Virus record (IMG/VR): IMGVR_UViG_3300040806_001781
Location: 1 to 28,891 of that record
DNA: 28,891 nt
Reading direction: 5' to 3' (one strand)
Origin: a virus
This document shows, piece by piece, positions 7,709-24,134 of this stretch (position 1 is the first letter of the stretch; every line of letters starts with the position of its first letter). Position numbers and translations under genes: made by a program. Under the pieces are notes generated by a model. That model was not told the origin of the DNA. It searched no databases and saw only the letters and a list, made by a program, of their open reading frames with translations.

Positions 7709-10255
7709 ATGTATGATATCTTTTATATTGGAAAACGTGATAATAATTGGAAAAGCTTTAAAGAAAATTATATCACAGCTAAACAAGCCGATTCTATTTT
7801 AGATGCACAAAGTAAAAGTTTAACAGACTTTTTCTATGCTGTACCTAACGATGTAATTGTTAACGATTTTGATTTTGACTACACTCCTGATAATTGGAGT
7901 AAAGAATACGTTCATGTTTTTAAAAACACAGAAAAATTTGACGGTATTGCACTAATACCTAAACGTATTCCGATACTTAACAGAGAATGGGACTATAGAT
8001 TTTTTGTTAATAAAAAAGAAGTAGACCAAGTTGTAAGTAAACCAAAGCCATATGATATATTTGAAATAGATTCATATGAGCAGTATCAGTATGCACTAGA
8101 AAATAGTACTACTGATATGTTTTGGATGGTTAGCTCTGAAATAAAATATAACAAAGAATTTTTAGATAATTTTTATATTAGTCATCACGATTCTTCCTTG
8201 CGTAAACAAACACATGCTTTTGGACATCAGTTAGAAGACGAAGTTGTTTATAATGGTGTATTTTTGTGTTCTAAACAACTTCCCTTGTCAAAAAGAGAAG
8301 TAGAATATAGGTTTCCTGTTAACAAGATTGAACATGAAGAAATTATATCAGAACCTAGATTGTATGATATCTATAATATAAAAAATTATGAAGATTATAA
8401 AAGTATACTAGACAGCACTAACAGAGAACTGTTTTGGCTTGTTCCAGATGATGTAGAACCTAATGCAGACTTTTTCTTTGACTTACATTTTCCTTTTGAA
8501 AACGAGTATGATAGAAAAATTAATCATGTATTCTTGAATGGTGAAGTTTATGACGGAATCGTACTAGCATCTAAGCATACTCCTATACTCAAAAGAGAGT
8601 TTGAGCATAGATTTATTATTAGCAAAAAAGAACACGCTGTTCAAGCAAGTACTCCGAAGTCTTTTCCTAAGTATGATTTTAAAACGTATGATGAATATAT
8701 AAACACCGTTGAAAAATGTACTGTTGATATGTTTTGGTGGACACCGGATGATGTTATTGTAGAAAATTTTGATTATAGTATGTATATAGATCATCATAAC
8801 AGTTACGATAGAAGTATTAATCATGTTTTTAAAAATGGTGACTACTATGACGGAATAGTACTTTTTAGTAAAAAATCAATTATAACACGTAGAGAATTTG
8901 AGCATAGATTTATAACACATAAAAAAGAACACGATATAATTGCAAGCAAGCCTAAGCCTTATGATGTATTTGAAATAGAAACACTTGACGATTATCAGAA
9001 TGTATTGCAAGAAACATCTCAAGACATGTTTTGGATGAGTTCTCCAAATATACGTGTAAACAATGATTTGATTAATAACTTTACAATTAGTCATCATGAA
9101 AGTGTAGATAGAAAACAAAATCATAGTTTTATTCATCAAGTAGAAGATCGTATGTTAAGAAATGGTCTATACTTATGTACAGTACATACTCCGGTAACTG
9201 AACGAGAAATAAAATATAGATTTTTAGCAAATCGTAAAGAGTGGGACGAAGTTGGATCTTATCCAACTAACTATGATGTATTTGAAGTTGACAGCTACGA
9301 AGAATATGAATATGCACTGAATAATTCATATACTGAGATGTTTTATGCAGTACCGAGTCATATAAAGGTAAATAACAGCTTTAAATTTGATGATTATTTT
9401 TCACATGATAACGAATTTGATCGCACAGTTACCCATGTATTTAAAAACGGTGAGTATCACGACGGTTTAAAATTATTTTCTAAACATAGTCCTATTGCTA
9501 GCAGAGAATTTGAATACGGGTTTATCATACATAAAAAAGAACTAGATATTACAGCAAGTTTACCTGCAGAGTTTGATGTTGTTTTTATTAGTTATAATGA
9601 GCCTAATGCAGACGAAAATTATGAAAGATTACTTTCTAAATTTCCAAACGCAAAACGTGTACACGGTGTAAAAGGCATTCACCAAGCACACATTGAAGCA
9701 GCAAAAATATGTACAACAAAGATGTTTTTTGTAGTAGACGGTGATGCACAACTGGTTGATGATTTTACATTTAATTATCAAGTACCTTTATGGAACATGG
9801 ATATGGTGCATGTATGGCGAAGTAAGAATCCCGTAAACGGATTAGAGTACGGTTATGGCGGCGTAAAATTATTACCTAGAGAATTAACAATTAATGTTGA
9901 TATTAATAGTCCTGATATGACTACTAGTATTAGTAATAAATTAAAAGTTGTAGAGTCAGTTTCAAATTATAGTATGTTTAATACTGACGAGTTTAGTACT
10001 TGGAAAAGCGCATTTAGAGAATGTGTAAAACTATCATCTAAAACAATTAGAGGACAAGTAAATGAAGACACAGAAAGAAGACTTAAAATTTGGTGTGAAA
10101 GGGGATCTTCGGCAGAATTTGGAAGATATTCTATTAGTGGCGCTTGCAGCGGCCGTGATTACGGTTATGACAATCGCGATAGGCCAGATAAGTTAAATTT
10201 AATAAACGATTTTGATTGGTTATATGAACAATTTTCAAAACATACCCTGGGATAA
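7709..10255 (+). CDS. Large repeat protein with C-terminal glycosyltransferase-like domain
   Basis: An 848-residue protein built from six tandem units of about 100 residues, starting near residues 2, 115, 219, 322, 418 and 522. A longer C-terminal unit runs from about 622 to 848. Each repeat runs YDVFEI..., then MFWMVPDDV, then NHVFKNGxYxDGI, then KREFEHRF and KKEHD. The terminal unit keeps the same order but has FVVDGDAQL (674-682), a plausible DxD metal/nucleotide-sugar site, and a longer N-terminal half. The repeats therefore look like shortened, DxD-lacking copies of that domain. I recall large repeat proteins of this kind (labelled VrlC-like) in T4-like cyanophages. There is no signal peptide or membrane segment. 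A role in glycosylation or as a large structural/adhesive protein is inferred. Confidence 0.65.
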   Translation: MYDIFYIGKRDNNWKSFKENYITAKQADSILDAQSKSLTDFFYAVPNDVIVNDFDFDYTPDNWSKEYVHVFKNTEKFDGIALIPKRIPILNREWDYRFFVNKKEVDQVVSKPKPYDIFEIDSYEQYQYALENSTTDMFWMVSSEIKYNKEFLDNFYISHHDSSLRKQTHAFGHQLEDEVVYNGVFLCSKQLPLSKREVEYRFPVNKIEHEEIISEPRLYDIYNIKNYEDYKSILDSTNRELFWLVPDDVEPNADFFFDLHFPFENEYDRKINHVFLNGEVYDGIVLASKHTPILKREFEHRFIISKKEHAVQASTPKSFPKYDFKTYDEYINTVEKCTVDMFWWTPDDVIVENFDYSMYIDHHNSYDRSINHVFKNGDYYDGIVLFSKKSIITRREFEHRFITHKKEHDIIASKPKPYDVFEIETLDDYQNVLQETSQDMFWMSSPNIRVNNDLINNFTISHHESVDRKQNHSFIHQVEDRMLRNGLYLCTVHTPVTEREIKYRFLANRKEWDEVGSYPTNYDVFEVDSYEEYEYALNNSYTEMFYAVPSHIKVNNSFKFDDYFSHDNEFDRTVTHVFKNGEYHDGLKLFSKHSPIASREFEYGFIIHKKELDITASLPAEFDVVFISYNEPNADENYERLLSKFPNAKRVHGVKGIHQAHIEAAKICTTKMFFVVDGDAQLVDDFTFNYQVPLWNMDMVHVWRSKNPVNGLEYGYGGVKLLPRELTINVDINSPDMTTSISNKLKVVESVSNYSMFNTDEFSTWKSAFRECVKLSSKTIRGQVNEDTERRLKIWCERGSSAEFGRYSISGACSGRDYGYDNRDRPDKLNLINDFDWLYEQFSKHTLG
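7715..9572 (+). repeat. Six tandem ~100-codon repeats inside the 848-codon gene
   Basis: Coding repeats of about 290-340 bases, recognisable by recurring codon blocks for MFW, DD/N-x-x-V, NHVFKNG, DGI, SKxxP, REFEHRF and KKEHD. Divergence between units is considerable at the DNA level, so this is an old amplification instead of recent slippage. Two antisense reading frames (around 8564-8824 and 8876-9139) look alike only because they lie opposite equivalent repeat segments. Confidence 0.8.
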
Positions 10256-11213
10256 TATTACTGAGTTTGGCCAGAAAACTCTCCTAAAGAGCCATCTTTT
10301 CACGGTTTCGTGGATCACCACTAGATATTGTAATTATGAGTGCAGTTATTGCTGGCCTCACGCTAGATCTAGTACCCCAGATCCAAAGCCAACAGAATTG
10401 TACTTAAACACAATGGATAGTATCAAGGCACAGGCAAGAGCTAATGGTTTTACTGATTTCCACTTCAGTTTTAGTGGAGGCGAACCTACTGTGAATAAAC
10501 AGTTCTTACCCTTAGTAGAACACTACTGTAAAGACGAAGCACCTGAGTATCAAAGCATACATATGACCACAAATCTAAGTCCAGGAAGCAAGTGGTGGAA
10601 TAAATACTTAGAAGCAACACAAACTTTACAGCGCAGAAGTATAACAGCAAGTTTTCACGACGAATTTGCTAAAGAACAAGAGTTTGGTGATAAATGCTTA
10701 CAACTTATAAATGGAGGAGTTTTTGTTACAATCAATCAAGTTATGGTTCCAGAAAAGTTTGAAGAACTTTACGAACGCTTGGAACGATTTGCCGCCAGAG
10801 GTATTAACGTCACTCTCAAGCCACAGTCCGATCCTACCGCCAGCTTCGTGGTACATGGATACAGCGATGAGCAAATACAAAAAATGCGATCAGGATTCCC
10901 TCAAACATGGAAAGGTGAACAAGTCGCACAAATCTTACTTAAAGACGATAAAGGAATAGAGTACGAATTAGACCAAGCAGAACGTTTTAATGCATTTGGC
11001 TTTAACAAGTTTCAAGGGTGGACTTGCAATGCAGGTTATCAAGGCATAATTATTCGTGACAACGAAGTTAGAAGAAGTCACAGTTGTCACGACGAAATAT
11101 TAGGAACAGTATCAAACGGGTTTGAATTATTTAAGAAACCTGCGAAGTGCATAACACCTAGTTGTATGAGTAGTGCAGATAGTAAATTGCCAAAGGTAAA
11201 GTATGAAAGTTGA
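10224..11213 (+). CDS. Radical SAM enzyme with C-terminal SPASM/twitch-like Cys module
   Basis: A 329-residue radical SAM protein. CNYECSYC (Cys36, 40, 43) ligates the [4Fe-4S]-SAM cluster, and SGGEP (84-88) binds the SAM amino group. A C-terminal module GWTC (Cys268), HSC (Cys288) and Cys309/Cys314 followed by LPK suggests an auxiliary Fe-S cluster. Three further genes in this window share this module. Such enzymes commonly modify peptides or sugars by C-H activation. The frame opens at TTG 10212, but ATG 10224 is preferred; neither has a clear ribosome site, and both overlap the previous gene. Parts of the gene (about 10250-10400 and 10790-10870) have visibly more G and C at third positions than neighbours. 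Confidence 0.87.
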   Translation: MNNFQNIPWDNITEFGQKTLLKSHLFTVSWITTRYCNYECSYCWPHARSSTPDPKPTELYLNTMDSIKAQARANGFTDFHFSFSGGEPTVNKQFLPLVEHYCKDEAPEYQSIHMTTNLSPGSKWWNKYLEATQTLQRRSITASFHDEFAKEQEFGDKCLQLINGGVFVTINQVMVPEKFEELYERLERFAARGINVTLKPQSDPTASFVVHGYSDEQIQKMRSGFPQTWKGEQVAQILLKDDKGIEYELDQAERFNAFGFNKFQGWTCNAGYQGIIIRDNEVRRSHSCHDEILGTVSNGFELFKKPAKCITPSCMSSADSKLPKVKYES

Positions 11214-11823
11214 TATAGAAGACGTATTGTTTTGGATGGATGCTATTCGCAACAGCGAAGATAGATATCGCACACTCGAAAGTTTTTGGAAAGGTCAAGT
11301 ACATAGTAAAGTATGGCTTGTTGAACAACTTGAAAAAATTTTACTTCAGTACCATAAAGAAAAAACAATAGCAATATACGGTGGCTGGAATGGCGTATTA
11401 TCTAGTATACTATTCAATAGCAAAATTAATATTAAACACATCACAAGTATTGATATTGATCCTGTTTGTGAAGAAATTGCAACAACAATTAATAGACGTC
11501 AAGAAATAGAAGGACGATTTAGTGCAATTACTTCTGATATGGTATATCATTACGAAAATGTTGATATTGTTATTAATACTAGTTGCGAACACATTACACA
11601 AGAACAATACGTCAAGTGGTTAAAAAATCAACCTGATGATGCAGTTATTGTACTACAAAGCAATAATTACTTTGATCACGAAGAACATATACGGTGTTCG
11701 ATTGACTTAAATGATTTTACAAAAATGAGTGGCATAAAACCTTTATATAGAGGTATTATGGAAACACCTAAATATGAACGTTATATGATTATTGGAAAGA
11801 AAAAATTTAATGAAGTTTTATAA
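11203..11823 (+). CDS. Class I SAM-dependent methyltransferase-like protein
   Basis: A 206-residue Rossmann-fold protein. IAIYGGWNG (57-65) is motif I, SIDIDP (82-87) supplies the acidic residues that bind the SAM ribose, SDMVYH (111-116) fits the adenine-binding motif, and VDIVINTSCEH (120-130) is the motif IV strand. The Gly-Trp-Asn form of motif I is unusual but in place. AAAGG lies 6 bases upstream of the ATG, and the gene overlaps the preceding radical SAM gene by 11 bases, implying joint translation. The methyl acceptor is unknown. Its stop is shared, in a TTATAA palindrome, with the stop of the opposing gene. Confidence 0.78.
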   Translation: MKVDIEDVLFWMDAIRNSEDRYRTLESFWKGQVHSKVWLVEQLEKILLQYHKEKTIAIYGGWNGVLSSILFNSKINIKHITSIDIDPVCEEIATTINRRQEIEGRFSAITSDMVYHYENVDIVINTSCEHITQEQYVKWLKNQPDDAVIVLQSNNYFDHEEHIRCSIDLNDFTKMSGIKPLYRGIMETPKYERYMIIGKKKFNEVL

Positions 11824-12465
11824 GTATAATGCGTAATCTTTATATTTTTCTAAACTTCTTTTAAGTAATTCTTCGTGCTTATCGTTATCAACTATTCCTG
11901 CAATACTAAGAATAATCTTAGGACGTTTAGTTGCAATAGCACCGTGCCAAACGTCTGCATTATTAAATGCAAAGCACGGAGATACTAGATTAGGATACAC
12001 TTTGTTCTCTCCTGTTTCGTCTGGACAAAAATAAAATGTATTATATCTAGGATCTGTTAGATAGATTGTATAGCGTCTAGGCTCTGTTGGATTGTTCTTG
12101 TCATGGGTGTCTTGATGCGGCGGAATTTCTCCCATTTGATATAACATTCCGCCAACTGTTAGTTGTTTAAAAGGTAGTTGCCTAATACAGTTTGCAATAC
12201 TAGGAAATGTTTCTTCAAACCCAGGATGAAATAACACACCTTCGTTTATGCCTTCTTCTCGTCTATTTCCCCACATTTCAGGATCGAATCGATGCCAGTC
12301 TTTTGGTTCTACACATGATGCTGCTAATGCCCAAGTGTGTCTATTAGACTCGTACTCCCAGTAATCAGTATCTAAAAACTTATGGTTGTGAAACCAGTCA
12401 ACTATAGTAGCTTCGTCTGGCCATTCTACATCAATATCGATTGGAAGGTATACTAGATTTTTCAT
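11818..12465 (-). CDS. 2OG-Fe(II) oxygenase-like protein (aspartyl/asparaginyl hydroxylase type)
   Basis: A 215-residue double-stranded beta-helix protein. PPHQDTHD gives His117/Asp119, and ADVWHGA gives the distal His174, together the 2-His-1-carboxylate iron site. The basic stretch KRPK (180-183) supplies the likely 2-oxoglutarate ligand. RYTIYL and FAFNNADVWH follow the strand order of the aspartyl/asparaginyl beta-hydroxylase group. The start at ATG 12465 is preferred over 12477 because GAGGAT lies just before it and the previous gene stops one base upstream. The hydroxylation substrate is unknown. It ends face to face with the methyltransferase gene. Confidence 0.8.
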   Translation of the reverse strand: MKNLVYLPIDIDVEWPDEATIVDWFHNHKFLDTDYWEYESNRHTWALAASCVEPKDWHRFDPEMWGNRREEGINEGVLFHPGFEETFPSIANCIRQLPFKQLTVGGMLYQMGEIPPHQDTHDKNNPTEPRRYTIYLTDPRYNTFYFCPDETGENKVYPNLVSPCFAFNNADVWHGAIATKRPKIILSIAGIVDNDKHEELLKRSLEKYKDYALYL

Positions 12466-12466
12466 G

Positions 12467-12970
12467 TTAATCCTCATATGTGCTTATTTGTAAAACTATA
12501 CGCGGCGAATAACCGATATTTGAAGCACCATGTATAGCAGACGAGTTTACATATTCGTATAAGTCGCCTTTCTTATAATTAGTAATTACTGTATCTTCAT
12601 ACAGAAATAAATGACCCGGTTCGTAGTCTTGCCACGGCATCCAATACCGTTTGCTGTTCTTTTGAAACTTAGTATGCGGATCAACGTGTATTGGCATAAA
12701 GTTTCCAGGTAACATTTTGGTAATCCACCAATGGAAGTTGTCTTGTATAAAGGGCGGAGCAACATTAAATGTAGTATTATTCTGTGTAAACATATAAAAG
12801 AATATGTCATCGTCTTTAAATCCTGCTGCCCTTGCTTTTGCGTATTCTGCTTCTTCTTCAGGACTGTCTGGTTTCTTGCCCTCAGCAGGTCTGGCAGTAC
12901 CACGATTAGATAGTATTTCTTCTACCCATTCGTCCTTAATCCAATCTGAAAAGTTACCAATAAACTTCAT
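12467..12970 (-). CDS. 2OG-Fe(II) oxygenase-like protein
   Basis: A 167-residue oxygenase fold. MPIHVDPHT gives His95/Asp97, SAIHGASN gives the distal His147, and SPRIVLQIS gives Arg157 for 2-oxoglutarate. The full HxD...H...R set is present. A short, charged, probably disordered segment (RPAEGKKPDSPEEEAEYAKA, about 27-46) interrupts the N-terminal part, and its codons are richer in G and C than the neighbourhood. The start lies in an ATGA overlap with the upstream radical SAM gene, so the two are translated together. The substrate may be the product of that enzyme, but this is inference. Confidence 0.8.
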   Translation of the reverse strand: MKFIGNFSDWIKDEWVEEILSNRGTARPAEGKKPDSPEEEAEYAKARAAGFKDDDIFFYMFTQNNTTFNVAPPFIQDNFHWWITKMLPGNFMPIHVDPHTKFQKNSKRYWMPWQDYEPGHLFLYEDTVITNYKKGDLYEYVNSSAIHGASNIGYSPRIVLQISTYED

Positions 12971-14250
12971 CTATACATCCTTATGTAAGGAAAAATCTTT
13001 TCATAATCTACGTTTCTAATACGTTTATACAAATCAAACACTCTAGTACGTTCTTTAACTTCTGCATCAAAGTTTTCAATATTTGCATACAAGTGAGCCG
13101 GAATAGACTTTAAATAATTAAGTGTGGCATTATTATTCTTAAACATAGGATGATCTTTGTTGTTCAGAGTATATGTTTCGATACGTCTTTTTAAGTCTTG
13201 TTTTTGATCGTCTTCTAAAAACTTTATATCTAAGTAACTAGGATCTTTAACAATATTAAATCCAATACGCATACCGTCTTTATATATAGATTTAAAGTTT
13301 TCAAATATGTCCTCAAAGTCTAAAATATTTAAACAGTTAAATGTAGTTGAAATATCTAAATTAATATCAGGGTCTTCTAATATCAACTCAACATTCTTTT
13401 TAAATTTAACATAATCTGTTGGAAAACGAATTGCTTTTAATTTCGCAGGATCTACATGATCGTAGCTCGCTACCAGTGTTGCAGATTTAAACTTTTTTAG
13501 TACACGTAGTTGTTTTTTGTTTATTAGTGTAAAATTTGAAATCATTTTAATGTGTATATTTTTTGCTAGATCCGTCTCTACTAATTTGTCTAGCAACTTA
13601 ATAGCAAAAGGATTTACAAATGCCTCTCCGCCTAACAATTCTAAATCGTGACAAACTTTTAATGCTGGTTCTAATTGTTCAATTACTTTTTCGGCATTGT
13701 CGTGACTAGCAAGTCCTGCAAAGTTTCTTAATGTTTCGTCTACTTTTTCTGCTTCGACGTCTACAAATTTTTGCCAAGCAGGAAGCTCTTCTCCGAGTAT
13801 TTTAATTTCTTGCACTTCATCTTGTATTTTACTACTAGCGAGTTGATTACACATTATGCATTTTAAATTACACAAGTTTCCAATTTTTAAGTCAATGTAT
13901 TTTGGTAGGGAAGTAATATGGCCATTGTTGTTATATGCTTCTTCAACTATATCTTCGTCTAGTACCACATCCTTTAAAGATTTTTGTCTGTATGAAAATC
14001 CGCCTGCATCTTCAATTTTCCAACAGTTATCACAATGACTATTACGCACTCCGTTGATTAGATCCATACGTAACTGTTTGTAATATTCATGATTCCACAT
14101 ATCTTCTATACCTACTTCAAGAATAGAAAAATATTCGCCTTTGTGTATGATGACAGGATAACTCATGCAGCATAACTTATAATGCCCGTTTGGAGACGAG
14201 TTAATGTGATTGAAAGGAATTTTGCAAAATGTACTTTCGCTTTTGTGCAT
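12967..14250 (-). CDS. Radical SAM enzyme with N-terminal twitch domain
   Basis: A 427-residue protein with two cysteine sets. The N-terminal module (Cys9, Cys27/28, Cys73 and Cys76, with NHINSSPNG and KLCCMS between) is the arrangement of radical SAM proteins with an N-terminal twitch auxiliary-cluster domain. The catalytic core has CNLKCIMC (Cys127, 131, 134) and LLGGE (205-209). Two homologues lie at 16120 and 21062. The first gene of its block, it is preceded by AAGGA and a TATAAATA box on the minus strand. The substrate is unknown. Nearby oxygenases and the methyltransferase suggest a multi-step modification. Confidence 0.87.
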   Translation of the reverse strand: MHKSESTFCKIPFNHINSSPNGHYKLCCMSYPVIIHKGEYFSILEVGIEDMWNHEYYKQLRMDLINGVRNSHCDNCWKIEDAGGFSYRQKSLKDVVLDEDIVEEAYNNNGHITSLPKYIDLKIGNLCNLKCIMCNQLASSKIQDEVQEIKILGEELPAWQKFVDVEAEKVDETLRNFAGLASHDNAEKVIEQLEPALKVCHDLELLGGEAFVNPFAIKLLDKLVETDLAKNIHIKMISNFTLINKKQLRVLKKFKSATLVASYDHVDPAKLKAIRFPTDYVKFKKNVELILEDPDINLDISTTFNCLNILDFEDIFENFKSIYKDGMRIGFNIVKDPSYLDIKFLEDDQKQDLKRRIETYTLNNKDHPMFKNNNATLNYLKSIPAHLYANIENFDAEVKERTRVFDLYKRIRNVDYEKIFPYIRMYR

Positions 14251-14266
14251 TTAAGTAGTGTCCTTG

Positions 14267-14283
14267 TGTAAATAATATTTATA
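14267..14283. promoter_or_regulatory. Divergent T4-late-like promoter boxes
   Basis: The minus strand carries an exact TATAAATA at 14283-14276, and the plus strand a one-mismatch TGTAAATA at 14267-14274. The inner edge of each box is 26 bases from the start codon it would serve (14250 on minus, 14300 on plus), so the two are almost symmetrical. Start sites six bases past the boxes would leave roughly 20-base leaders; the minus leader contains AAGGA. A chance match to an eight-base AT motif is quite possible in this sequence, but the position supports function. Confidence 0.5.
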
Positions 14284-14299
14284 ATAGTAGTGGTTAATA

Positions 14300-15385
14300 A
14301 TGTTTTTATTTGAAGAACTTAAACAAGTACATATAGAAATTACAACTCGTTGTCAAGCAAGTTGTCCAATGTGTAGCAGAAATTATCACGGAGGACTTGA
14401 AAATCCTAATCTACGCTTAAATGACTGGACTTTAGACGAGTTTGTTTCTATTTTTGACAATACGTTAGTTAATCAACTTTCGGGTGTGTACTTTTGTGGA
14501 AACTTTGGCGACCCAATTATTAACAATGATCTTGCAGAAATGTGTAATCATTTAACTATTAATAATCCTAAAATGAGTGTTCGTATACACACTAATGGAA
14601 GTGCAAGATCATTAGACTGGTGGAAAAAGTTACCTTCAAAGTTACCTAAAGACCATGTTGTTGTATTTGCCTTAGACGGACTAGCAGACACACATCACAT
14701 TTATCGTATTGGTACTAAGTTTGAACAAATACTTAAAAATGCACAAGCATTTATACAAGCAGGCGGAATTGCTGAATGGGTGTTTATTAAATTCAAGCAC
14801 AACGAGCATCAAGTCGACGAAGCGCAGCGTATAGCTACAGAAATAGGTTTTCAAAGATTTAGTGTTAAGAATAGTTCAAGATTTTTAACGGATGATAAAT
14901 TTGATGTATACGACGAAACTGGAAATATAATTTACCATTTAGAACCGCCTAGCGAAAATGAAATACAGTTTATTTCAAAAGATATTGTAAACAATGTTGA
15001 CAAATGGCTCGACAATGTTGAAATAGAATGTTATGTTAATAAACACAAAGAAATTTATATGGATGCTCATAGAATGTTATGGCCCTGTTGTTTCTTAGCA
15101 TCAACACCGTATAATCATAACGAGCCTTCTAGTATTATACATCAATTAAAAATACGAGCAGTTGACGAATACAATGACGTAGTTAAATATTTTGGTAGCG
15201 AAGATGCATTAGACTTAACTAAACATCATGCTAAAGATATAATCAATTCTACAGCTTGGCAAAATATTTGGCAGGAAAAATGGTCAAAGAAACAATTACT
15301 AGTTTGTGCTAAAACTTGCGGCAAGTCAAAAGTTAAAGAGTTTTCAAAACCTACTGAACAAATTATTCAAAGGATTAATTTATAA
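14300..15385 (+). CDS. Radical SAM/SPASM-like enzyme with GNFGDP motif
   Basis: A 361-residue radical SAM protein. CQASCPMC (Cys18, 22, 25) binds the catalytic cluster. The usual GGEP is replaced by CGNFGDP (66-72). The C-terminal part has Cys244, the pair Cys263/264 (WPCCFLAS) and Cys336/340 (VCAKTCG), an arrangement consistent with a SPASM-type auxiliary cluster domain. It has a different architecture from the other seven radical SAM proteins here. It heads the plus-strand block, 50 bases after a divergent start, with a weak ribosome site. A 12-codon micro-ORF immediately follows its stop. Confidence 0.84.
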   Translation: MFLFEELKQVHIEITTRCQASCPMCSRNYHGGLENPNLRLNDWTLDEFVSIFDNTLVNQLSGVYFCGNFGDPIINNDLAEMCNHLTINNPKMSVRIHTNGSARSLDWWKKLPSKLPKDHVVVFALDGLADTHHIYRIGTKFEQILKNAQAFIQAGGIAEWVFIKFKHNEHQVDEAQRIATEIGFQRFSVKNSSRFLTDDKFDVYDETGNIIYHLEPPSENEIQFISKDIVNNVDKWLDNVEIECYVNKHKEIYMDAHRMLWPCCFLASTPYNHNEPSSIIHQLKIRAVDEYNDVVKYFGSEDALDLTKHHAKDIINSTAWQNIWQEKWSKKQLLVCAKTCGKSKVKEFSKPTEQIIQRINL

Positions 15386-15423
15386 TGAGCATGTCAAGAT
15401 TAATACAGGGTTTTAAAGAATGA
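15385..15423 (+). CDS. 12-codon micro-ORF, coupled on both sides
   Basis: An ATG at 15385 begins inside the previous stop (TAATG), and the 12-codon frame MSMSRLIQGFKE ends in a TGA that overlaps the next gene's ATG (ATGA). It exactly fills the only gap of its block. AGGA lies 10 bases upstream. It may be a translated spacer that carries ribosomes between two genes, a very small peptide (even a substrate of the flanking enzymes), or chance. Nothing but geometry supports translation. Confidence 0.3.
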   Translation: MSMSRLIQGFKE

Positions 15424-16127
15424 TAGATAAAATTCCTTTTGATAGTAGTTGGAAAAATATTGGCATAAGTTTAAGCGGTGGTGCAGATAGCGCACTACTT
15501 GCATATTTATTATGTTCAAAAGTAACAACTACTAATGTTCACATATTAAGTCATGTGCGTATGTGGAAGACACGCCCGTGGCAACGTTATGATAGTTTAG
15601 GTGTATATAATTGGTTAGTTAACCGTTTCCCGCATATAAAATTTACAAGACATGAAAATTTCATTCCACCAGAAATGGAATATGGTAATAAAAAAGAACA
15701 ATTATATGACGAGTACGGCAATTTTCGTAGTGGCGATCAAATTATTGTAAGGGCACATGCAGAATGGATTGCTATGACCGAAAAGTTAGATGCTTGGTAT
15801 GCAGGTAAAACTAAAAATCCAAGTGATCCTACAATTACAAAAGGTATGCCTGATAGAAATGTTATAGAAGAAGATACTAACGAACTTGTTAAAGAACATC
15901 TGGGCGTTAAAGTTTGTCATCCATTTTTATATACCGAAAAAGATTGGATAATTTCCCAGTATATCAAACATGACATCTTAGATTTATTAAATATCACACG
16001 CAGTTGTGAAGGCGACTTTAAAGATTTAGATTATACAAATTATATACCAGGACAAGAAGTACCAGAATGTGGAGAATGCTTTTGGTGCCAAGAGCGTAAA
16101 TGGGCAATGGATAAAAATAATGTCTGA
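15420..16127 (+). CDS. QueC/ExsB-like PP-loop ATP pyrophosphatase
   Basis: A 235-residue N-type ATP pyrophosphatase. SGGADS (19-24) is the PP-loop that binds ATP phosphates. Near the C terminus, Cys196 (RSCEG), then Cys217, Cys220 and Cys223 in CGECFWCQERKWA, form a four-Cys site like the zinc site of QueC (7-cyano-7-deazaguanine synthase). QueC adenylates a carboxylate to make an amide and a nitrile. Here no other 7-deazaguanine genes are present, so only the carboxylate-activating chemistry is suggested. Members of the wider family are often called phosphoadenylylsulfate-reductase-like. It lies between two radical SAM genes, overlapping the next by 8 bases. A paralogue is at 18487-19161. 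Confidence 0.8.
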   Translation: MIDKIPFDSSWKNIGISLSGGADSALLAYLLCSKVTTTNVHILSHVRMWKTRPWQRYDSLGVYNWLVNRFPHIKFTRHENFIPPEMEYGNKKEQLYDEYGNFRSGDQIIVRAHAEWIAMTEKLDAWYAGKTKNPSDPTITKGMPDRNVIEEDTNELVKEHLGVKVCHPFLYTEKDWIISQYIKHDILDLLNITRSCEGDFKDLDYTNYIPGQEVPECGECFWCQERKWAMDKNNV

Positions 16128-17511
16128 TTTAGAAAAATATCAAGCAGAAATAGCAAAAGTGTCTGGTACAGCTACTTTTTGTATTTTACCTTGGATACAT
16201 TTTGCAACACGACCAAATGGCGACATGCGATTATGTTGCAGTGCTAATGCTAGTGGTGCAGGTAATGATCATGAAATAGGCCTTGTTAAAATGGAAGACG
16301 GCCGACCTGCTAACTTTGGACATCATACTCCTATGGAAGCGTGGAATAACGATTATATGAAAAGTGTACGCCGCACGATGTTAGCAGGAGAAATACCAGC
16401 AAGTTGTACTAAATGTTTTGAAGAAGAAGATAAAGGCATTGTTAGTAAGCGTATTTGGGAAACAGGCACTTGGCATCAAGATGAAGATGCAGGTATAGAT
16501 ATTCCAGAACTTATAAGACAAACTAAAGAGGACGGAACAGTACCAGAAGAGTTAAAGTATTTAGATTTACGATTAGGTCATACTTGTAATATTAAGTGTG
16601 TTATGTGTAGTCCTCATGATAGTTCTAAATGGGTAAGTGATCACAAGAAACTTATACCTGTACTACAAGATCCCGAAGTAAAAAGGCAGATGCAATGGGA
16701 TCGTAAAGAGTTTAATAACTTTTGGCACGAAAAGGATACATTCTGGGAAGAAATGTATGCTCAAATACCTAACCTAAGACAAGTATACTTTGCAGGCGGC
16801 GAACCTCTAATGATCAAAGAACACAAACAGTTCATTGAAGAAATAGTGCGTCAAGGTTATCAAGACAAAATACTGTTACGTTATAACTCTAACGGATTGC
16901 TTGTAGACGAAGATTTAATTGAGTTATGGAGTAAATTTAAAAAAGTTAAATTTGCTATTAGCATGGATGCTAGTCACGAACGTGACGAGTATATACGATT
17001 TCCTACTGATTTTGAAACTGTAGAACGTACACTACATATGTTAGACAATACGCCCGACAACATACAAACTAGCCTAGCAACTGCTATACAAATTTTTAAT
17101 GTTAAACACTTGCCTGATTTTATGAAGTGGAAAGTAGAAAGTGGATTTAAAAAACTAAACAGCGGTACAGTACCAGGTGGTGTGCAGATGGGCGGAGGCT
17201 TAGTCAATATGCACTTGTTATACATTCCTACGTTTTTAAGCATACAGATTCTACCTAAAGAAGATAAGCAAGAAGTTGAAGAACGTTTTATGGATTTTAA
17301 AGATTGGCTATGGAAAAACTATAGACAAGATGACGATTACTGGAAGCATAATCCTTATGGTTGGAAACGTTGGGAAGCAGTTCTTAATCATATGAATGCA
17401 CAGGATAATAGTTATCTACTTCCTGGCTTTAAAGAGTATACAAACAAATTAGATGCAATCCGCGGCCTCAGCGCAGCAAAAATATTCCCAGAATTGGCAC
17501 ATTTATTATGA
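16120..17511 (+). CDS. Radical SAM enzyme with N-terminal twitch domain
   Basis: A 463-residue protein, the longest of the three N-twitch enzymes. The N-terminal cluster ligands are Cys21, Cys39/40 (MRLCCSA) and Cys96/Cys99 (SCTKCFEEED). The core motif CNIKCVMC gives Cys156, 160, 163, and AGGEP (225-229) is complete. CILPWIHFATRPNG is the N-terminal signature shared with the 21062 gene. The start is ATG 16120, which makes an ATGTCTGA 8-base overlap with the ATPase gene; an upstream in-frame ATG at 16069 would overlap it by 59 bases. Coupling to the QueC-like ATPase suggests work on the same substrate. Confidence 0.87.
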   Translation: MSDLEKYQAEIAKVSGTATFCILPWIHFATRPNGDMRLCCSANASGAGNDHEIGLVKMEDGRPANFGHHTPMEAWNNDYMKSVRRTMLAGEIPASCTKCFEEEDKGIVSKRIWETGTWHQDEDAGIDIPELIRQTKEDGTVPEELKYLDLRLGHTCNIKCVMCSPHDSSKWVSDHKKLIPVLQDPEVKRQMQWDRKEFNNFWHEKDTFWEEMYAQIPNLRQVYFAGGEPLMIKEHKQFIEEIVRQGYQDKILLRYNSNGLLVDEDLIELWSKFKKVKFAISMDASHERDEYIRFPTDFETVERTLHMLDNTPDNIQTSLATAIQIFNVKHLPDFMKWKVESGFKKLNSGTVPGGVQMGGGLVNMHLLYIPTFLSIQILPKEDKQEVEERFMDFKDWLWKNYRQDDDYWKHNPYGWKRWEAVLNHMNAQDNSYLLPGFKEYTNKLDAIRGLSAAKIFPELAHLL

Positions 17512-18485
17512 TTAAAGAAATTATAGAAGTAAAAGCAACACACAAGGATGTATTACGTATATATTGCGACTTTAGTAATGTTTGTAATTACAAGTGCTGG
17601 TATTGCTTCCCAGATTCAAATACAGGCACACATCCTTGGCCCAATGATGATGTTATTAAAGAAAACATTGTTTCTTTAGTAAACTTTTACAATAATAGCG
17701 GTATTATTAATAGAGTAGAGTTGCATTTATTAGGAGGCGAACCTACTTTATGGAAAGATTTAGGAAAGTTTGTAAAATATGTAACAGAAAACTGTAAATG
17801 TGCTATTAAAATTTTAACAAATGGTAGTAGAACTCTACGTTGGTGGAAAGAGTACTCGGATTATTTTGAAGCTATACATATTACTGTGCATCACGAAAGG
17901 GTTGATTTAGAGCATATTGAAAATTTATCTAAACTTTTATTAGAAAAAGATTCATTGTTTGAGTTAAAAGTCCTAATGGATTTTAAAAATTGGGATAAAT
18001 GCGTATCTATAGTGGATAGATTGTCTAATTTTGAAGAAGATATTTTACTAAGAATAGAACCTATACACATTAATGGTGAGTCTTTTTATACAGATGAACA
18101 AAAAACATATTTTGAAGAAAGCATCAGGAAAAAGCCAAGTCCTAAAATGATAGAAAGGTGGATGCAGCAGCCAATGAGAAAGTACAGTGTTATCACAAGT
18201 GATAGGCAAGAGCACGAAGTAAATTCAGACGGATGGTTTTCTTTAAATAACTTAAACCATTTTGAAGGCTGGAAATGCAATTTAGGGATTAACTATTTGT
18301 ATATAAGCAGAGACGGAGTTATATCTGGAACATGTAAACAAAAGTTATTTGAGATAGACGGATACTATAATATAAAAGACCCGGACTTTAAAAATAAATT
18401 TTCACCTGAGCTAAAACCTGTAATATGTCAACAAACGGTATGCATGTGTGCAGGAGAAGCATCTTTACCTAAGTGTAAACAATAA
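17508..18485 (+). CDS. Radical SAM enzyme with C-terminal GWxC Cys module
   Basis: A 325-residue radical SAM protein. CNYKCWYC (Cys26, 30, 33) and LGGEP (75-79) form the core. The C-terminal module has GWKC (Cys257), GTC (Cys276), Cys307 and CMC (Cys312/314), then AGEASLPK. This matches, segment by segment, the tail of the 10224, 19158 and 20164 proteins. The start overlaps the previous stop (ATGA). Its stop is separated by one base from the opposing gene's stop. Family is sure; the substrate is unknown, although the clear paralogy implies related substrates or sequential steps. Confidence 0.87.
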   Translation: MIKEIIEVKATHKDVLRIYCDFSNVCNYKCWYCFPDSNTGTHPWPNDDVIKENIVSLVNFYNNSGIINRVELHLLGGEPTLWKDLGKFVKYVTENCKCAIKILTNGSRTLRWWKEYSDYFEAIHITVHHERVDLEHIENLSKLLLEKDSLFELKVLMDFKNWDKCVSIVDRLSNFEEDILLRIEPIHINGESFYTDEQKTYFEESIRKKPSPKMIERWMQQPMRKYSVITSDRQEHEVNSDGWFSLNNLNHFEGWKCNLGINYLYISRDGVISGTCKQKLFEIDGYYNIKDPDFKNKFSPELKPVICQQTVCMCAGEASLPKCKQ

Positions 18486-18486
18486 T

Positions 18487-19161
18487 TTAAAATTTACCAA
18501 ATGCCCAAAGGCGTTCTCTACAATTCCAACACTTTTCGCAATGTGTGTTTGCTGGACTGTGGCCGCCGCAACTATTTGTTAACGGAAATAGCGTATCTAA
18601 TAAGTTATGTTGTTTATAAATTTCAGCTATTTCTTTTTTATCCATCATTATAAATGGGCGGATATCTCCAAACTCGTAATCTGTGTTATCAATTTCTATA
18701 ACTCCGCACAAAATTTTAAGTTTGTTGACCATACTTCCTCGAATATTTTGTACTTCTGGAGATATCTCCCATCCATTAGTGTACGCTTCAATATCAGGAG
18801 ATTGATTTATACCGCTATAAATATAGTTATACCTTCCTTCTTTTATATGACTATTTCGAACATTAGAAAAACTTTCATCGTATTCTTGTTTAGTTTCTGG
18901 ACAGTGTACAATGATATCTAAGAATAATTCACTACAGTTTAAATCTTGTTTAATAAAATTTAAAACATCTAAATGACATGTGTCGCCCTTGCGCTTCAAT
19001 ATAGATACCGGCTGAATTTTATAATCTAAATTATTTTCTTTTATATGTTTAGCTAGTAGATAGCATAGTATACTACTATCAGCACCTCCAGATAACCAAA
19101 TTCCAAGAGTGTTATTTTTTTCTAAAAAAACGTTATTAGGTATATAAAAATTGATATTCAT
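18487..19161 (-). CDS. QueC/ExsB-like PP-loop ATP pyrophosphatase, second copy
   Basis: A 224-residue protein with the PP-loop SGGADS (24-29). A C-terminal four-Cys site is formed by Cys198 (NSCGG) and Cys208, Cys211, Cys214 in CEKCWNCRERLWA. The ending closely parallels that of the 15420 protein (C-x2-C-W/FWC-x-ER-x-WA), although the middle is very different, which fits old duplication and new specificity. The start overlaps the stop of the 19158 radical SAM gene (ATGA), with AAGGAA five bases before it. As with the first copy, it probably activates a carboxylate or related group with ATP. Confidence 0.8.
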   Translation of the reverse strand: MNINFYIPNNVFLEKNNTLGIWLSGGADSSILCYLLAKHIKENNLDYKIQPVSILKRKGDTCHLDVLNFIKQDLNCSELFLDIIVHCPETKQEYDESFSNVRNSHIKEGRYNYIYSGINQSPDIEAYTNGWEISPEVQNIRGSMVNKLKILCGVIEIDNTDYEFGDIRPFIMMDKKEIAEIYKQHNLLDTLFPLTNSCGGHSPANTHCEKCWNCRERLWAFGKF

Positions 19162-20177
19162 ATTAATTCCTTAAATGTAATAATGTCCTTTGCTTTAGGC
19201 ACACACATTCCACAGCCGCAACGATTATTAGGACAAACAATAATCTTATCTTTATTTTCTGCAACATAGTCTAGTATTGAAGATGTGTTATTTAAGTTAC
19301 CTATAGGGCCTCTACGACCGTCGTGTAGTGCTTGACACGTTTGATGATGGTACACGTTACCTGTATGTTGATCAATGTGTAAAAAGTACTTGTTTACACT
19401 ACAAAACCACCCTTTAAAATTTGTATTAACAAAGTCAACATCCTGCCATTCACCGTTAACTTTTCCTTGTACACAACGCCCGCCACAACAGTTGCGTCCT
19501 TCTTTAGGTTCACTTATACCTAAGTAATTAAAATACCATTGTTTTTGATTTTCGTTATACTCATGACTTGTGCGCCTCTCGCTTCCGTCTGTGTCAATAA
19601 ACCAACCTTTGCGTTCAATATTACCATCACCTATCGGTCTTGGATTATGCTTGATCCCCAATTCTTTTAATTCTGCACAAATGCGTTCGCACTCTGTAAA
19701 ATGATCAACATGCATCATTACATTGACTTGTAACCATATACCTGTTTTGTACAGTAGTTTAATATTGTCCATGGTTTGCTTTTTAAGTATTTCTGCACCT
19801 TCAGCATGGTAACTAACAGTTACACCTTCAAACCATTTAGCAATGCGATCTGTATTTTTGGGATGCCACGCACCATTAGTAGTTAAACTTAATCTAAAAC
19901 GTGTTTCAGTTTCGTATATGTGTTCTGCTAGTTTCCAAAACGCATTATTAACTGTAGGCTCTCCGCCTGTAAAATTAATATTGACTAATTGATCGCCTGT
20001 ATATTCTTTTATAAATTTAAAAGTTTTTAATAGTTCATCGTATGAATGTAAAGGACTAACATTGTCATGTCGTGTTGCTTCGCAGTATGTACAATCAAAA
20101 TTACATCTACGTCCGGTATCCCACGTAACCATGAAGCGTTCTGTGTTTGGTAATCTTATAGCACTAGTCTTTAACAT
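19158..20177 (-). CDS. Radical SAM enzyme with C-terminal GWxC module and extra Cys insertion
   Basis: A 339-residue radical SAM protein. CNFDCTYC (Cys25, 29, 32) and TGGEP (70-74) make the core. An insertion with Cys230, Cys231 and Cys235 (RNCCGGRC) precedes the C-terminal module GWFC (Cys259), TC (Cys281), Cys315 and C-x-C-x2-C (Cys320, 322, 325) and VPKAKD. The additional Cys set sets it apart from its three paralogues and might hold a further metal site. It overlaps the upstream radical SAM gene by 14 bases and the downstream ATPase by 4, so all three should be made together. Confidence 0.87.
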   Translation of the reverse strand: MLKTSAIRLPNTERFMVTWDTGRRCNFDCTYCEATRHDNVSPLHSYDELLKTFKFIKEYTGDQLVNINFTGGEPTVNNAFWKLAEHIYETETRFRLSLTTNGAWHPKNTDRIAKWFEGVTVSYHAEGAEILKKQTMDNIKLLYKTGIWLQVNVMMHVDHFTECERICAELKELGIKHNPRPIGDGNIERKGWFIDTDGSERRTSHEYNENQKQWYFNYLGISEPKEGRNCCGGRCVQGKVNGEWQDVDFVNTNFKGWFCSVNKYFLHIDQHTGNVYHHQTCQALHDGRRGPIGNLNNTSSILDYVAENKDKIIVCPNNRCGCGMCVPKAKDIITFKELI

Positions 20178-21069
20178 TTATTTTACTCAACGGAATATCT
20201 GCGGCACATGTACACCATTTACGTGTGCAAGTTACCCACTCTTCAGGAGACTCAAATTCTCCTTTATATATGTTACCTAAACTGCCACCTACACGACAAG
20301 TAGCACGATGTACCTCGCCGTCCCAGTTAATCATTAGACTTTCTATGCCAGCAGCACAACTCCATCCCTCAAACTGATTTAGGTGTTCTTTAATGATATC
20401 ATTGGCATGCATTAGTTCTTTATCGTCAATCACACAGTTAGCTTTAGCGGTAGATTTTTGATCTAGTATCCATTGCAAATCTTTTGGCTGATAACGCATA
20501 TCGTCAAACCAGTCATGCTTCTCTGTCCAGCGTATGCGTCTTACTACATAAGGAATATGATGTCCATCAAACAACGTTGCACAAGTTTTTACTCTATCCA
20601 TATGTTCGTGATGTGCCATTAGATTAACTTGAAATGGTATACCTCTTTCTGTCTCGTTTAGTTGCGTCCAGTATAGCACATTGTTTAAACAACGTTCCCA
20701 GTTGTCATCATCTTCTACATGCAAGCTGAATACGTAATGGTTTACAGGTAGTCTGCCATACAGTTTGTGCGGTAGTGTTCCATTAGTTGTAATGTTAACC
20801 CAGTCTAATTGTTGTACAGCGTGGTCTACTATGTCTATAATATAAGGATGTATGCAAGGTTCTCCGCCTGTTAAACTTAAACGTACAGGCTTTCCTATTT
20901 CTGCAAGTGCATCGATAGTATCTGTCATAACTTTAACTTCAGTGTGAGAACTAAAATTGTCATGTATTTCTGCAGGACAATATGTGCAGTCTAGATTACA
21001 TCGTTTACCAATATTCCACTCAACATGTATACTATCTTGATGCGGCCATTTAGATGTTACTTTATACAT
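20164..21069 (-). CDS. Radical SAM enzyme with C-terminal GWxC Cys module
   Basis: A 301-residue radical SAM protein. CNLDCTYC (Cys24, 28, 31) and TGGEP (67-71) are canonical. The C-terminal module has GWSC (Cys238), ATC (Cys258), Cys281 and CTC (Cys286/288), followed by AADIPLSK. It is the smallest of the four GWxC paralogues. It begins in an 8-base overlap (ATGTATAA) with the N-twitch gene upstream and runs 14 bases into the next radical SAM gene. Three radical SAM enzymes in series on one message suggest an ordered set of modifications; the substrate is not evident. Confidence 0.87.
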   Translation of the reverse strand: MYKVTSKWPHQDSIHVEWNIGKRCNLDCTYCPAEIHDNFSSHTEVKVMTDTIDALAEIGKPVRLSLTGGEPCIHPYIIDIVDHAVQQLDWVNITTNGTLPHKLYGRLPVNHYVFSLHVEDDDNWERCLNNVLYWTQLNETERGIPFQVNLMAHHEHMDRVKTCATLFDGHHIPYVVRRIRWTEKHDWFDDMRYQPKDLQWILDQKSTAKANCVIDDKELMHANDIIKEHLNQFEGWSCAAGIESLMINWDGEVHRATCRVGGSLGNIYKGEFESPEEWVTCTRKWCTCAADIPLSKINVKD

Positions 21070-22327
21070 AAGGTGTAAACTCCGGATTGACGTTAAAGAA
21101 ATTTTGATCTCTAGTTTTATCTAATCTACGATTAAATTCTACACAATCGTTCCAATGCGTATCGTACATACACTTTGCTGTTAAGAAATTAATGTTATCT
21201 TGAATCTGTTGTAATGTTACCTTTTTTAGTATATCGTGTTCTTGTACTAGAGGATATTCTAATACTTCTGTTTTCATTTCTTCTAAACGTTCTACTACTT
21301 GCTTCTTTAGATCTGGCGGCAATACTTGCGCACTTAATGACATAGGATAGTTTACACGATGCGAATAAAACACAATGCCCATTTTATTAATAAAGTAATC
21401 AATTACTTTGTCAATCTGCATAATGTTATTTGCTTGCACAGTGAACGCACCTACTACACGACTTACATTAGGAAAGCTTTTAAATACTTTGATGTTTTCT
21501 TCTACTTCACTAAACTTTCCATTACCTCTAATGTACTCGTAGACATCGTGTATACCGTCTATGCTTACGTTTACTGCGATTGATTTAAACTTGGGCCAAT
21601 AGTCGTGTATTGTACGTCCGCCTTTTATACCTAGCGTAGTGCCGTTTGTAGCATACTTTAGTTCTATGTTATCGCCATACTCTGCAAGTTTGTCTAGTAT
21701 CTTGTAATGATGCGGATCCATTAGAGGTTCACCGCCTGCAAACTCTACTCTACGGAAATACGGCAATAGTTTTTCAAAACTATTCCACCAGTTATCACTG
21801 TTGTCAAATGGACCAATGTACTGTCCGGGCTTGTCTACTAGTGCGTCGATTGTAGGAATCAAGTAGTTGTTTTCTTTTTTGTAAAATTCTGTAACTTGAT
21901 TCCAGTCTTTCCAACTTGTACTATCTAACGGATTACACATACGACACTTTAGGTTACACAAGTTGTTTAGTTTAATCTCCATAGTAGGAAATTCAAAAGG
22001 CATTGTATAATCGTCGTTTAGTGCGTCCAGTGCATCAGGGTATAAGTTGACCCTAGCTTCTGGTATTACCCCTACTGTATGACGCTGTCGTAAGCTCTCT
22101 ACACCCTGATCTTCTAAGTCAAAGCATGGTTTACAAACATCAGGACGTTCGTCATTAAGCACTTGTCTACGTACTTCACGTATAGCATCATTATTCCACG
22201 CTTCTTCTAGAGTTTCATTTTGTATCCAGCTAATAGGTTGACTACGGCAACAAATTTTAATTGCGCCATCCTCTCGTGTAGCAAGACCTGTAAAAGGGTG
22301 CATACAAAATGTACATGACTTATTCAT
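21062..22327 (-). CDS. Radical SAM enzyme with N-terminal twitch domain
   Basis: A 421-residue protein. The N-terminal auxiliary ligands are Cys8 (with Cys5 near), Cys26/27 (IKICCRS) and Cys65/68 (VCKPCFDLED). The radical SAM core has CNLKCRMC (Cys124, 128, 131) and AGGEP (197-201). The start is ATG 22327: GGAG and GTGGA sit upstream of it and it forms an ATGAATAA 8-base overlap with the previous gene. An in-frame ATG at 22345 is less likely. It is closest in layout to the 16120 protein. The minus-strand order (unknown two-domain protein, this enzyme, two GWxC radical SAM enzymes, QueC-like ATPase) mirrors the content of the plus-strand block. Confidence 0.87.
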   Translation of the reverse strand: MNKSCTFCMHPFTGLATREDGAIKICCRSQPISWIQNETLEEAWNNDAIREVRRQVLNDERPDVCKPCFDLEDQGVESLRQRHTVGVIPEARVNLYPDALDALNDDYTMPFEFPTMEIKLNNLCNLKCRMCNPLDSTSWKDWNQVTEFYKKENNYLIPTIDALVDKPGQYIGPFDNSDNWWNSFEKLLPYFRRVEFAGGEPLMDPHHYKILDKLAEYGDNIELKYATNGTTLGIKGGRTIHDYWPKFKSIAVNVSIDGIHDVYEYIRGNGKFSEVEENIKVFKSFPNVSRVVGAFTVQANNIMQIDKVIDYFINKMGIVFYSHRVNYPMSLSAQVLPPDLKKQVVERLEEMKTEVLEYPLVQEHDILKKVTLQQIQDNINFLTAKCMYDTHWNDCVEFNRRLDKTRDQNFFNVNPEFTPYV

Positions 22328-23480: not shown

Positions 23481-24114
23481 TATGATTATTATAACTTCTT
23501 ACAACTAAATTTGCAAATTCTTTTTTCATATTTCCAATCATACAGTGTGCAATAAGATGAATTCTTGGAATATTAGAATTATTTTGAACAGAATGATTTT
23601 TAGTAATGTTTACTATAAACGATTTACCTTCTGCCCACGGCACTCTTTTACCGCCTATATGCATAGTGCATCCTTGCGGATGTGTAATTGCAATATTAAT
23701 AGGCACAATGAATGGATCGTCCATTAGCTTAATTTCTGTATTTGAAAAGCCTCCCGGAGCATCGTTATGTTCGCCAACCCAACCACTAGGTTCTAGTTCC
23801 ATAAATCTAATACGTCCAAATCGTTCGCTTGGAAATTGTTTCCAAAAAGAAGTAATTGTTGGAGTTAAGTCGCTTAGTTCTGTCCAATCAAATACAGCAT
23901 TTTCTGAAAACGCTGTTTTTGTTACACCTTGACCGTGTATAGCACAACTACGCCAACCTTTATGATTTTCGTCTTTTCTGTGTCCTACCATAAATTCTCT
24001 AGCAATTTCAGCTTCTTGTTTCCAAGCAAATAAATCAATATCTAAATCCAACTCTATCCATCCGATATCTTTTTGTAATATTTCTTCTGCTTGTTCTATC
24101 ACACTCATATACAT
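23473..24114 (-). CDS. Aspartyl/asparaginyl beta-hydroxylase-like 2OG-Fe(II) oxygenase
   Basis: A 213-residue protein. RIRFMELEPSGWVGEHNDAP gives His116/Asp118, KNHSVQN gives the distal His174, and IPRIHLIAH gives Arg184 as the 2-oxoglutarate ligand. Among the seven oxygenase-like proteins here this is one of the best matches to the aspartyl/asparaginyl hydroxylase family. The frame opens at TTG 24123, but ATG 24114 (or ATG 24108 two codons later) is the likely start; no strong ribosome site is present. First gene of the minus block carrying three radical SAM enzymes, it may hydroxylate the same substrate. Confidence 0.82.
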   Translation of the reverse strand: MYMSVIEQAEEILQKDIGWIELDLDIDLFAWKQEAEIAREFMVGHRKDENHKGWRSCAIHGQGVTKTAFSENAVFDWTELSDLTPTITSFWKQFPSERFGRIRFMELEPSGWVGEHNDAPGGFSNTEIKLMDDPFIVPINIAITHPQGCTMHIGGKRVPWAEGKSFIVNITKNHSVQNNSNIPRIHLIAHCMIGNMKKEFANLVVRSYNNHND

Positions 24115-24134
24115 ACTTAGCAATTAAATGCGTA

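Follow-up and report, generated by a model that had tools for sequence, protein, structure and literature searches.

What might a phage gain from eight radical S-adenosylmethionine (SAM) enzymes encoded almost side by side? The question is raised by the virus record IMGVR_UViG_3300040806_001781 of IMG/VR, whose entire 28,891 bases constitute the window analysed here. A previous sequence-only reading of this DNA had pointed to eight radical SAM proteins and two QueC-type PP-loop ATPases flanked by oxygenases and a methyltransferase, and had proposed that they act together to modify a peptide, a sugar or a nucleotide. Genes and families are designated below by their first window coordinate. The set belongs to a module, conserved in T4-like aquatic phages, that combines radical SAM, QueC-like and oxygenase proteins with methyltransferase-like and predicted glycosyltransferase ones.

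A conserved module in viral loci

Scans of viral contigs with 17508 and with PP-loop protein A (15420) retrieved 160 loci of uncultivated viruses, 111 of which remained after the removal of near-duplicates. PP-loop A served as seed since PP-loop protein B (18487) yielded no confirmed relative in the viral collection. Co-occurrence was counted in two sets, one of 41 loci (at least 18 kb each) seeded on PP-loop A and one of 23 loci retrieved with 17508. Only the seed gene itself is present by choice, and the view extends 10 kb to each side of it. In the first set, 16120, 20164, 21062 and 24148 are present in 41/41 loci and 14300 in 40, followed by 24800 (36 loci), 11203 (35), 17508 (32), 10212 and 26898 (31 each) and 26093 (30). 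The second set displays 10212 and 11203 in 22 of the 23 loci, 14300 and 16120 in 21, and 20164, 21062 and 24148 in 19 each. The core consists of 10224 (family 10212), 11203, 14300, 15420, 16120, 17508, 20164, 21062 and 24148, usually accompanied by 24800, 26093 and 26898. The notion that the ten enzyme genes form a unit is borne out by this strong co-occurrence, but 12967 (5/41 loci), 19158 (7/41) and 18487 are accessory, so not all ten belong to the core; 22320 (18/41) is accessory as well.

Of the 558 proteins checked in seven families, 556 retain an intact CxxxCxxC motif. Together with the recurrence of the genes across non-redundant contigs, on which the families cluster rather than being scattered independently, this places the set far beyond chance. 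Gene order and accessory content differ between loci, and a reduced version of the module exists in one phage contig (G320, see below); this could mean that radical SAM genes gather at a hotspot of gene capture, each working on its own, without any common pathway. Such an explanation appears highly improbable, as specific orthologous families co-occur near-completely and the same families cluster on bacterial chromosomes.

Common additions in the relatives include B12-type and zinc-ribbon radical SAM proteins, SGNH and GNAT proteins, short-chain dehydrogenases/reductases (SDR), and tryptophan-halogenase, amidinotransferase-like and pyridoxal-phosphate-aminotransferase-like (u290) proteins, several of these names resting on motifs read by eye. 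Flavin-dependent tryptophan-halogenase-type proteins are located in or beside the module at L016:3212-4711 and L095:6193-7659, and one phage harbours within its module an Fe-S assembly protein (PF01883; L106:16097-16387), which fits a need for many Fe-S clusters. The u290, amidinotransferase-like, halogenase, GNAT, SDR and B12-type radical SAM genes, together with the kinase-fold genes, would suit the synthesis during infection of a diffusible small molecule or cofactor, such as an aminocyclitol- or nucleoside-like metabolite. This reading is doubtful: no dedicated exporter or synthetase was recognized in the window or the annotated neighbours, and the accessory genes differ from phage to phage.

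Radical SAM enzymes and their partners

All eight window radical SAM proteins possess CxxxCxxC in open frames and score above the curated cut-off of PF04055, and both PP-loop proteins (15420 and 18487) contain SGGADS and a four-cysteine C(x)nCxxCxxC site. The sequence-only reading is confirmed on these points, and its gene starts and ends agree with the frames found. The 10224 ATG sits inside a TTG-started frame at 10212 and the 22327 ATG inside a TTG frame reaching 22345. A match of each member to one known pathway was not obtained: 12967 (287 bits), 16120 (397) and 21062 (330) pass the curated cut-off of NF033640 (170) over the full model, and the other five radical SAM proteins of the window reach no curated specific radical SAM model.

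Profile-profile comparison unites 10212, 17508, 19158 and 20164 along almost the entire protein, a group whose C-terminal region carries at least four conserved extra cysteines; it also unites 16120 with 21062, whereas 14300 stands apart. The eight enzymes represent three families: a C-terminal auxiliary-cluster type (four members), an N-terminal twitch type (three) and the 14300 type (one). The set thus arose partly by duplication. In family 10212 the extra conserved cysteines are at positions 272, 292, 313 and 318 (numbered from the frame start at 10212), and 106 of 333 positions are at least 97% conserved among the 82 phage members; the corresponding figure for family 21062 is 141 of 427. 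Prokaryotic viperin was considered and rejected, as the best NF038283 score was 49 bits against a cut-off of 180, with a match local to the radical SAM core. The PADLOC scan covered the ten enzymes only, that is, the eight radical SAM and two PP-loop proteins.

The surrounding oxygenases are upheld by a PF05118 match of 23473 and by near-invariant HxD...H residues across the relatives of 12467, 24148, 24800 and 26093. The accompanying methyltransferase is upheld only as methyltransferase-like by motifs: 11203 has no Pfam or PDB match, including when its family profile was compared with PDB sequences. The 22320 family profile likewise found no match among PDB sequences.

QueC-like proteins and 7-deazaguanine genes

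PP-loop B exceeds the PF06508 QueC cut-off (32.6 versus 22 bits), whereas PP-loop A falls below it (17.2 versus 22). The predicted structure of A, with a predicted local distance difference test score (pLDDT) of 88, matches NcsA, QueC and Cap9, and its family profile found no match among PDB sequences. The SGGxDS phosphate loop is present in 76/76 PP-loop A sequences and also in B. By contrast, the canonical QueC motifs YxQxHxxE, VPxRN and YPDC (as defined in PMC13329287) are each found in 0/76 PP-loop A sequences and are absent from B too. The zinc-site spacing C(x)8CxxCxxC defined in the same source occurs in 0/76 PP-loop A sequences, the first spacing being 20 or 27 in A and 9 in B; the QatC site C(x)19CGxCxxRR is likewise seen in 0/76. 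Canonical QueC and QatC identities are ruled out for PP-loop A by this motif test, and the protein forms a separate subgroup with a predicted QueC-like fold.

The claim that no other 7-deazaguanine genes are present holds for the window, in which neither FolE nor QueE was found, but not for six relatives, which encode both GTP cyclohydrolase I (FolE) and a QueE-like protein. These are six of the 11 large relatives; each has a T4-type capsid gene and a QueE-like gene near FolE, the latter confirmed by PHROGs profile in four records and by sequence in two. In L222-L227 the two genes are located in the genome core, and several of these records also encode the small conserved family phrog_17812. 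No canonical QueC over the cut-off was found in the module-bearing relatives with GTP cyclohydrolase I and QueE-like genes, so that the QueC-like enzyme of the module could act on 7-carboxy-7-deazaguanine.

This combination in six T4-capsid carriers of the module invites the idea that phage DNA or nucleotides are hypermodified, possibly from phage-made 7-deazaguanine. The idea is nonetheless improbable: none of the 11 large relative records, some of which may be incomplete, contained a tRNA-guanine transglycosylase (TGT)/dpdA gene; canonical QueC motifs are lacking in PP-loop A, as described above; five other large records that are sources of PP-loop A, possibly incomplete too, revealed no GTP cyclohydrolase I; and the core resides on Bdellovibrionota chromosomes as well. 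A different use of the same precursor is conceivable. The QueC-like protein Cap9 uses 7-carboxy-7-deazaguanine in defence and modifies a protein N-terminus (PMC13279940). The QueC-like enzyme might activate 7-carboxy-7-deazaguanine, supplied by the GTP cyclohydrolase and QueE-like enzyme of the phage itself, or another carboxylate and attach it to an amine of a molecule that the radical SAM enzymes have prepared, giving a nucleobase-conjugated glycan or protein in phages and Bdellovibrionota islands alike. This is a long shot; if true, it would extend a conjugation by QueC-like enzymes so far reported only in anti-phage defence.

The Bdellovibrionota counterpart

A scan for the 10224 family across one genome per species (84,980 species) disclosed 22 loci at approximately 45–56% identity. 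Nineteen are by name Bdellovibrionota, which include relatives of predatory bacteria, and L169 belongs to the same phylum. The remaining two, L187 and L190, are binned to Acidimicrobiaceae and Gammaproteobacteria, and their 10212 sequences cluster with those of Bdellovibrionota; the phage-type genes of L190 (ThyX-like, HNH-like) suggest that both may be phage contigs placed in the wrong bin. L190 itself resembles phage DNA, and the two loci hint at a second phage lineage with a bacterial-type module. Of 291 Bdellovibrionota genomes, 17 yielded a 10212 homologue, and several of those 17 are seeds.

The bacterial counterparts are chromosomal islands of approximately 25–30 kb that contain 10212, 16120, 14300, the C-terminal domain of 7709, 11203, u290, SDR and B12-type radical SAM genes, with a QueC-like protein also in several genomes. 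Among the Bdellovibrionota loci annotated, L171, L176 and L186 encode family-2 glycosyltransferases close to the core, and the L186 island also includes SDR, asparagine-synthase and acyltransferase-like genes. No phage tail genes were recognized in the stretches read around the core. In a maximum-likelihood tree the 82 phage 10212 sequences are split from the cellular group with full support, which indicates that the exchange is not recent; the tree does not give its direction. A protein pair of approximately 160 and 330 residues, membrane-like by eye, recurs in islands L207, L211 and L217, and the longer one, when tested, had no Pfam match. A putative fusion of radical SAM and glycosyltransferase domains in L186 and L188 was set aside, because the N-terminal part offers only CxxxCxxC and a weak resemblance to a single radical SAM profile (domain E 0.0035 in L186).

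Phage carriers and controls

A T4-type major capsid gene is present in 6 of 25 large records. The six capsids are 78–85% identical mutually, and the one searched is approximately 72% identical to those of jumbo T4-like phages such as Phosso, PA5oct and GAP32. Each of 11 large records contains 8–15 radical SAM genes, mostly in one block, an extraordinary endowment for one phage genome. Mtd_N tail-fibre proteins adjoin the block in L016, L106 and L119 and are present in 9 of the 11 records. Neither 10224 nor PP-loop A has a match in 50,697 annotated phage records, and megablast against phages gave no match.

Contigs with close capsid genes served as control, with the proviso that large records may still be incomplete. 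Within the same capsid clade, G319 and G320, which measure 210 and 176 kb, are devoid of a 10212 homologue and contain 2 and 4 radical SAM genes, respectively, whereas G323 has 10212 and 8 radical SAM genes. Downstream of a shared anchor gene, G320 has a smaller version of the module, which includes 14300, 11203 and the 7709 C-terminal domain among other genes, and G319 has just one 11203 relative nearby. The idea that the module evolves unusually slowly failed when tested against the capsid protein: gp23 is 78–85% identical among the six records, against medians of 38–63% for the module proteins.

A tentative pathway to a surface glycan

The C-terminal domain of 7709 offers a clue to the product. 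Its model (pLDDT 92) has 46 PDB matches at E <= 0.001, glycosyltransferases throughout among the matches listed, including sugar, teichoic-acid and peptide transferases, and the domain is accordingly regarded as a predicted GT-A glycosyltransferase. In several relatives it is a stand-alone gene directly upstream of the 10224 family. In the window it is preceded by tandem degenerate repeats of approximately 100 residues (7709-9571), which few relatives have (L052, L164, L129).

A glycosyltransferase is thus encoded with the module, as far as the predicted structure indicates. This domain, the glycosyltransferase neighbours in Bdellovibrionota and the adjacency to tail fibres favour a surface glycan, and the presence versus near-absence of the module inside one capsid clade is counted for the same view. 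We infer a sugar or glycan as the product, together with the order of the steps and the benefit to the phage. The pathway would be a semi-mobile multi-enzyme system in which the three radical SAM families, the oxygenases, the methyltransferase-like protein and the QueC-like ATP-dependent enzyme act one after another on a sugar or on a building block linked to a sugar. The neighbouring GT-A protein would then attach the tailored unit to a glycan on the surface of the infected cell or, with lower probability, of the virion, and the altered surface would change what other phages or predators can bind. The chances that a multi-step pathway yields a sugar modified by radical chemistry, which is then added to a surface glycan, are put at slightly less than even. 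Of the three product classes envisaged by the sequence-only reading, sugar is favoured by the predicted GT-A domain and the Bdellovibrionota neighbours.

Several observations weigh against a glycan. The TM-scores of the GT-A domain are low (0.30–0.46 by query length), and its top fold matches include the protein and peptide glycosylators SunS and ppGalNAc-T, so that the fold leaves the acceptor unfixed. Only 8 of the 15 loci with room to show it revealed a GT-A gene no more than 6 kb from family 10212. No sugar-acting radical SAM model was matched above cut-off by the window radical SAM proteins, and auxiliary-cluster radical SAM enzymes often have peptide substrates. The epimerase and kinase genes of the window lie outside the conserved module and have relatives in only 0–3 of the fetched loci; the sugar-nucleotide genes of the window are not conserved with the module and were discounted as strong glycan support.

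Some of these points, and others, would suit a protein substrate. The enzymes may modify a large protein encoded elsewhere, be it a tail fibre, another virion protein or a host protein, with the GT-A domain glycosylating the same target. Every radical SAM family has conserved extra cysteines for auxiliary clusters, the twitch family matches SPASM-type regions, an Asp/Asn hydroxylase is among the oxygenases, tail-fibre genes adjoin the module in several phages, the GT-A fold resembles SunS and ppGalNAc-T, and Cap9 sets a precedent for a QueC-like enzyme acting on a protein N-terminus (PMC13279940). Conversely, no precursor-like conserved small open reading frame was found in or near the module, and Bdellovibrionota chromosomes carry the core too, frequently next to glycosyltransferases, in stretches where no tail genes were recognized. 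On balance, protein modification is rather unlikely.

A more specific version, a ribosomally synthesized and post-translationally modified peptide with a local precursor, is rejected. The window genes between 7.7 and 28.2 kb overlap or are separated by gaps of no more than 49 bp, and the conserved small open reading frame that the sequence-only reading had advised looking for was absent from the gaps of the relatives' loci; both facts count against a local peptide precursor beside the maturases. The close packing also suggests joint expression of the module genes.

The surface-glycan pathway, if correct, would imply that phages remodel host surfaces by radical chemistry; a nucleobase or protein conjugate as product would represent new chemistry. 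The common core in T4-like aquatic phages and Bdellovibrionota chromosomes makes the pathway testable in bacteria, beyond uncultured viruses.

Gene content of the window

The window has a G+C content of 29–39%. No tRNA genes were found across its 28,891 bases and no structural genes were recognized among its genes; it is taken as a viral fragment for the latter reason. The first 7.7 kb contain genes for three SDR sugar enzymes, a nucleotidyltransferase and a PfkB kinase, and the genes that follow are listed in Table 1. The kinase-fold protein at 26898-27578, common in the module, has HRD- and DFG-like positions without the usual aspartates and is apparently a pseudokinase. A fragmentary gene at the contig end (28195-28890) encodes fatty-acid desaturase histidine boxes and has relatives in 14 loci.

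Table 1. Genes of the module region in the window, with the principal evidence for each assignment.
Product	Position	Strand	Evidence
848-residue protein, tandem degenerate repeats of ~100 residues and C-terminal domain	7709..10255	+	C-terminal domain at residues 622-848 (window 9572-10252)
Radical SAM, core family 10212 (C-terminal auxiliary-cluster type)	10224..11213	+	PF04055 48.8 bits
Methyltransferase-like core protein	11203..11823	+	conserved G61, W62, G64, D84, D86
Putative Fe(II)/2-oxoglutarate oxygenase, accessory	11818..12477	-	motif only; relatives in 13 loci
Putative Fe(II)/2-oxoglutarate oxygenase, accessory	12467..12970	-	conserved H95, D97, H147
Radical SAM, N-terminal twitch NF033640, accessory	12967..14250	-	286.7 bits vs cut-off 170
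Radical SAM, core family 14300	14300..15385	+	PF04055 35.8 bits
QueC-like PP-loop enzyme A, core	15420..16127	+	SGGADS, W(K/R)T(R/K)PWQ, HP(F/L), C(x)20 or 27 CxxCxxCxER
Radical SAM, N-terminal twitch NF033640, core	16120..17511	+	396.7 bits vs 170
Radical SAM, C-terminal auxiliary-cluster type, core	17508..18485	+	PF04055 45.8 bits; relatives; conserved Cys
QueC-like PP-loop enzyme B, rare variant	18487..19161	-	C(x)9CxxCxxC; PF06508 32.6 bits vs 22
Radical SAM, C-terminal auxiliary-cluster type, accessory	19158..20177	-	PF04055 49.2 bits
Radical SAM, C-terminal auxiliary-cluster type, core	20164..21069	-	PF04055 44.7 bits
Radical SAM, N-terminal twitch NF033640, core	21062..22327	-	330 bits vs 170
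Conserved protein, accessory	22320..23480	-	18/41 loci; no PDB match
Aspartyl/asparaginyl hydroxylase-like oxygenase, accessory	23473..24123	-	PF05118 54.4 bits
Putative Fe(II)/2-oxoglutarate oxygenase, core	24148..24819	+	conserved H81, D83, H125; 41/41 loci
Putative Fe(II)/2-oxoglutarate oxygenase, frequent	24800..25342	+	conserved H105, D107, H161; 36/41 loci
Putative Fe(II)/2-oxoglutarate oxygenase, frequent	26093..26905	-	conserved H177, D179, H236; 30/41 loci
Protein-kinase-fold protein, apparently degenerate, frequent	26898..27578	-	profile match to kinase TTK E 1e-5; 31/41 loci

Comparison with known systems

Three window proteins are members of NCBIfam NF033640, a subfamily without assigned function that does not cover the other five radical SAM enzymes or the module. 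The PP-loop fold, SGGxDS and four cysteines are common to the module proteins, to QueC (PF06508) and to its protein-modifying relatives Cap9 and QatC, and 18487 lies above the Pfam cut-off; PP-loop A differs from the QueC family in having no canonical motifs, a longer cysteine spacing and a signature of its own, W(K/R)T(R/K)PWQ. The Campylobacter phages CP21 and CPt10 and 250-kb Vibrio phages are likewise large and encode radical SAM proteins 22–26% identical to 16120, 20164 or 21062, but show no match to 10224 or PP-loop A. A description of this gene set was not found in the open papers, most subscription journals being outside the search. The pathway is therefore considered new as a set, in that no matching system emerged from the libraries and open papers searched, although its folds are known and radical SAM cassettes have been seen before.

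The closest parallel is provided by the pelagimyophages of Zaragoza-Solas et al. 2020 (PMC7029224), which are likewise T4-like and aquatic and possess radical SAM cassettes in a hypervariable island that also encodes tail fibres and glycosyltransferases. The passages found in that article place the cassettes and glycosyltransferases in a host-recognition island and assign the cassettes no function; they give no composition, core, QueC-like gene or cellular counterpart, and the comparison is one of descriptions. The module described here would give a context for the frequent but unexplained radical SAM and oxygenase genes of marine viromes.

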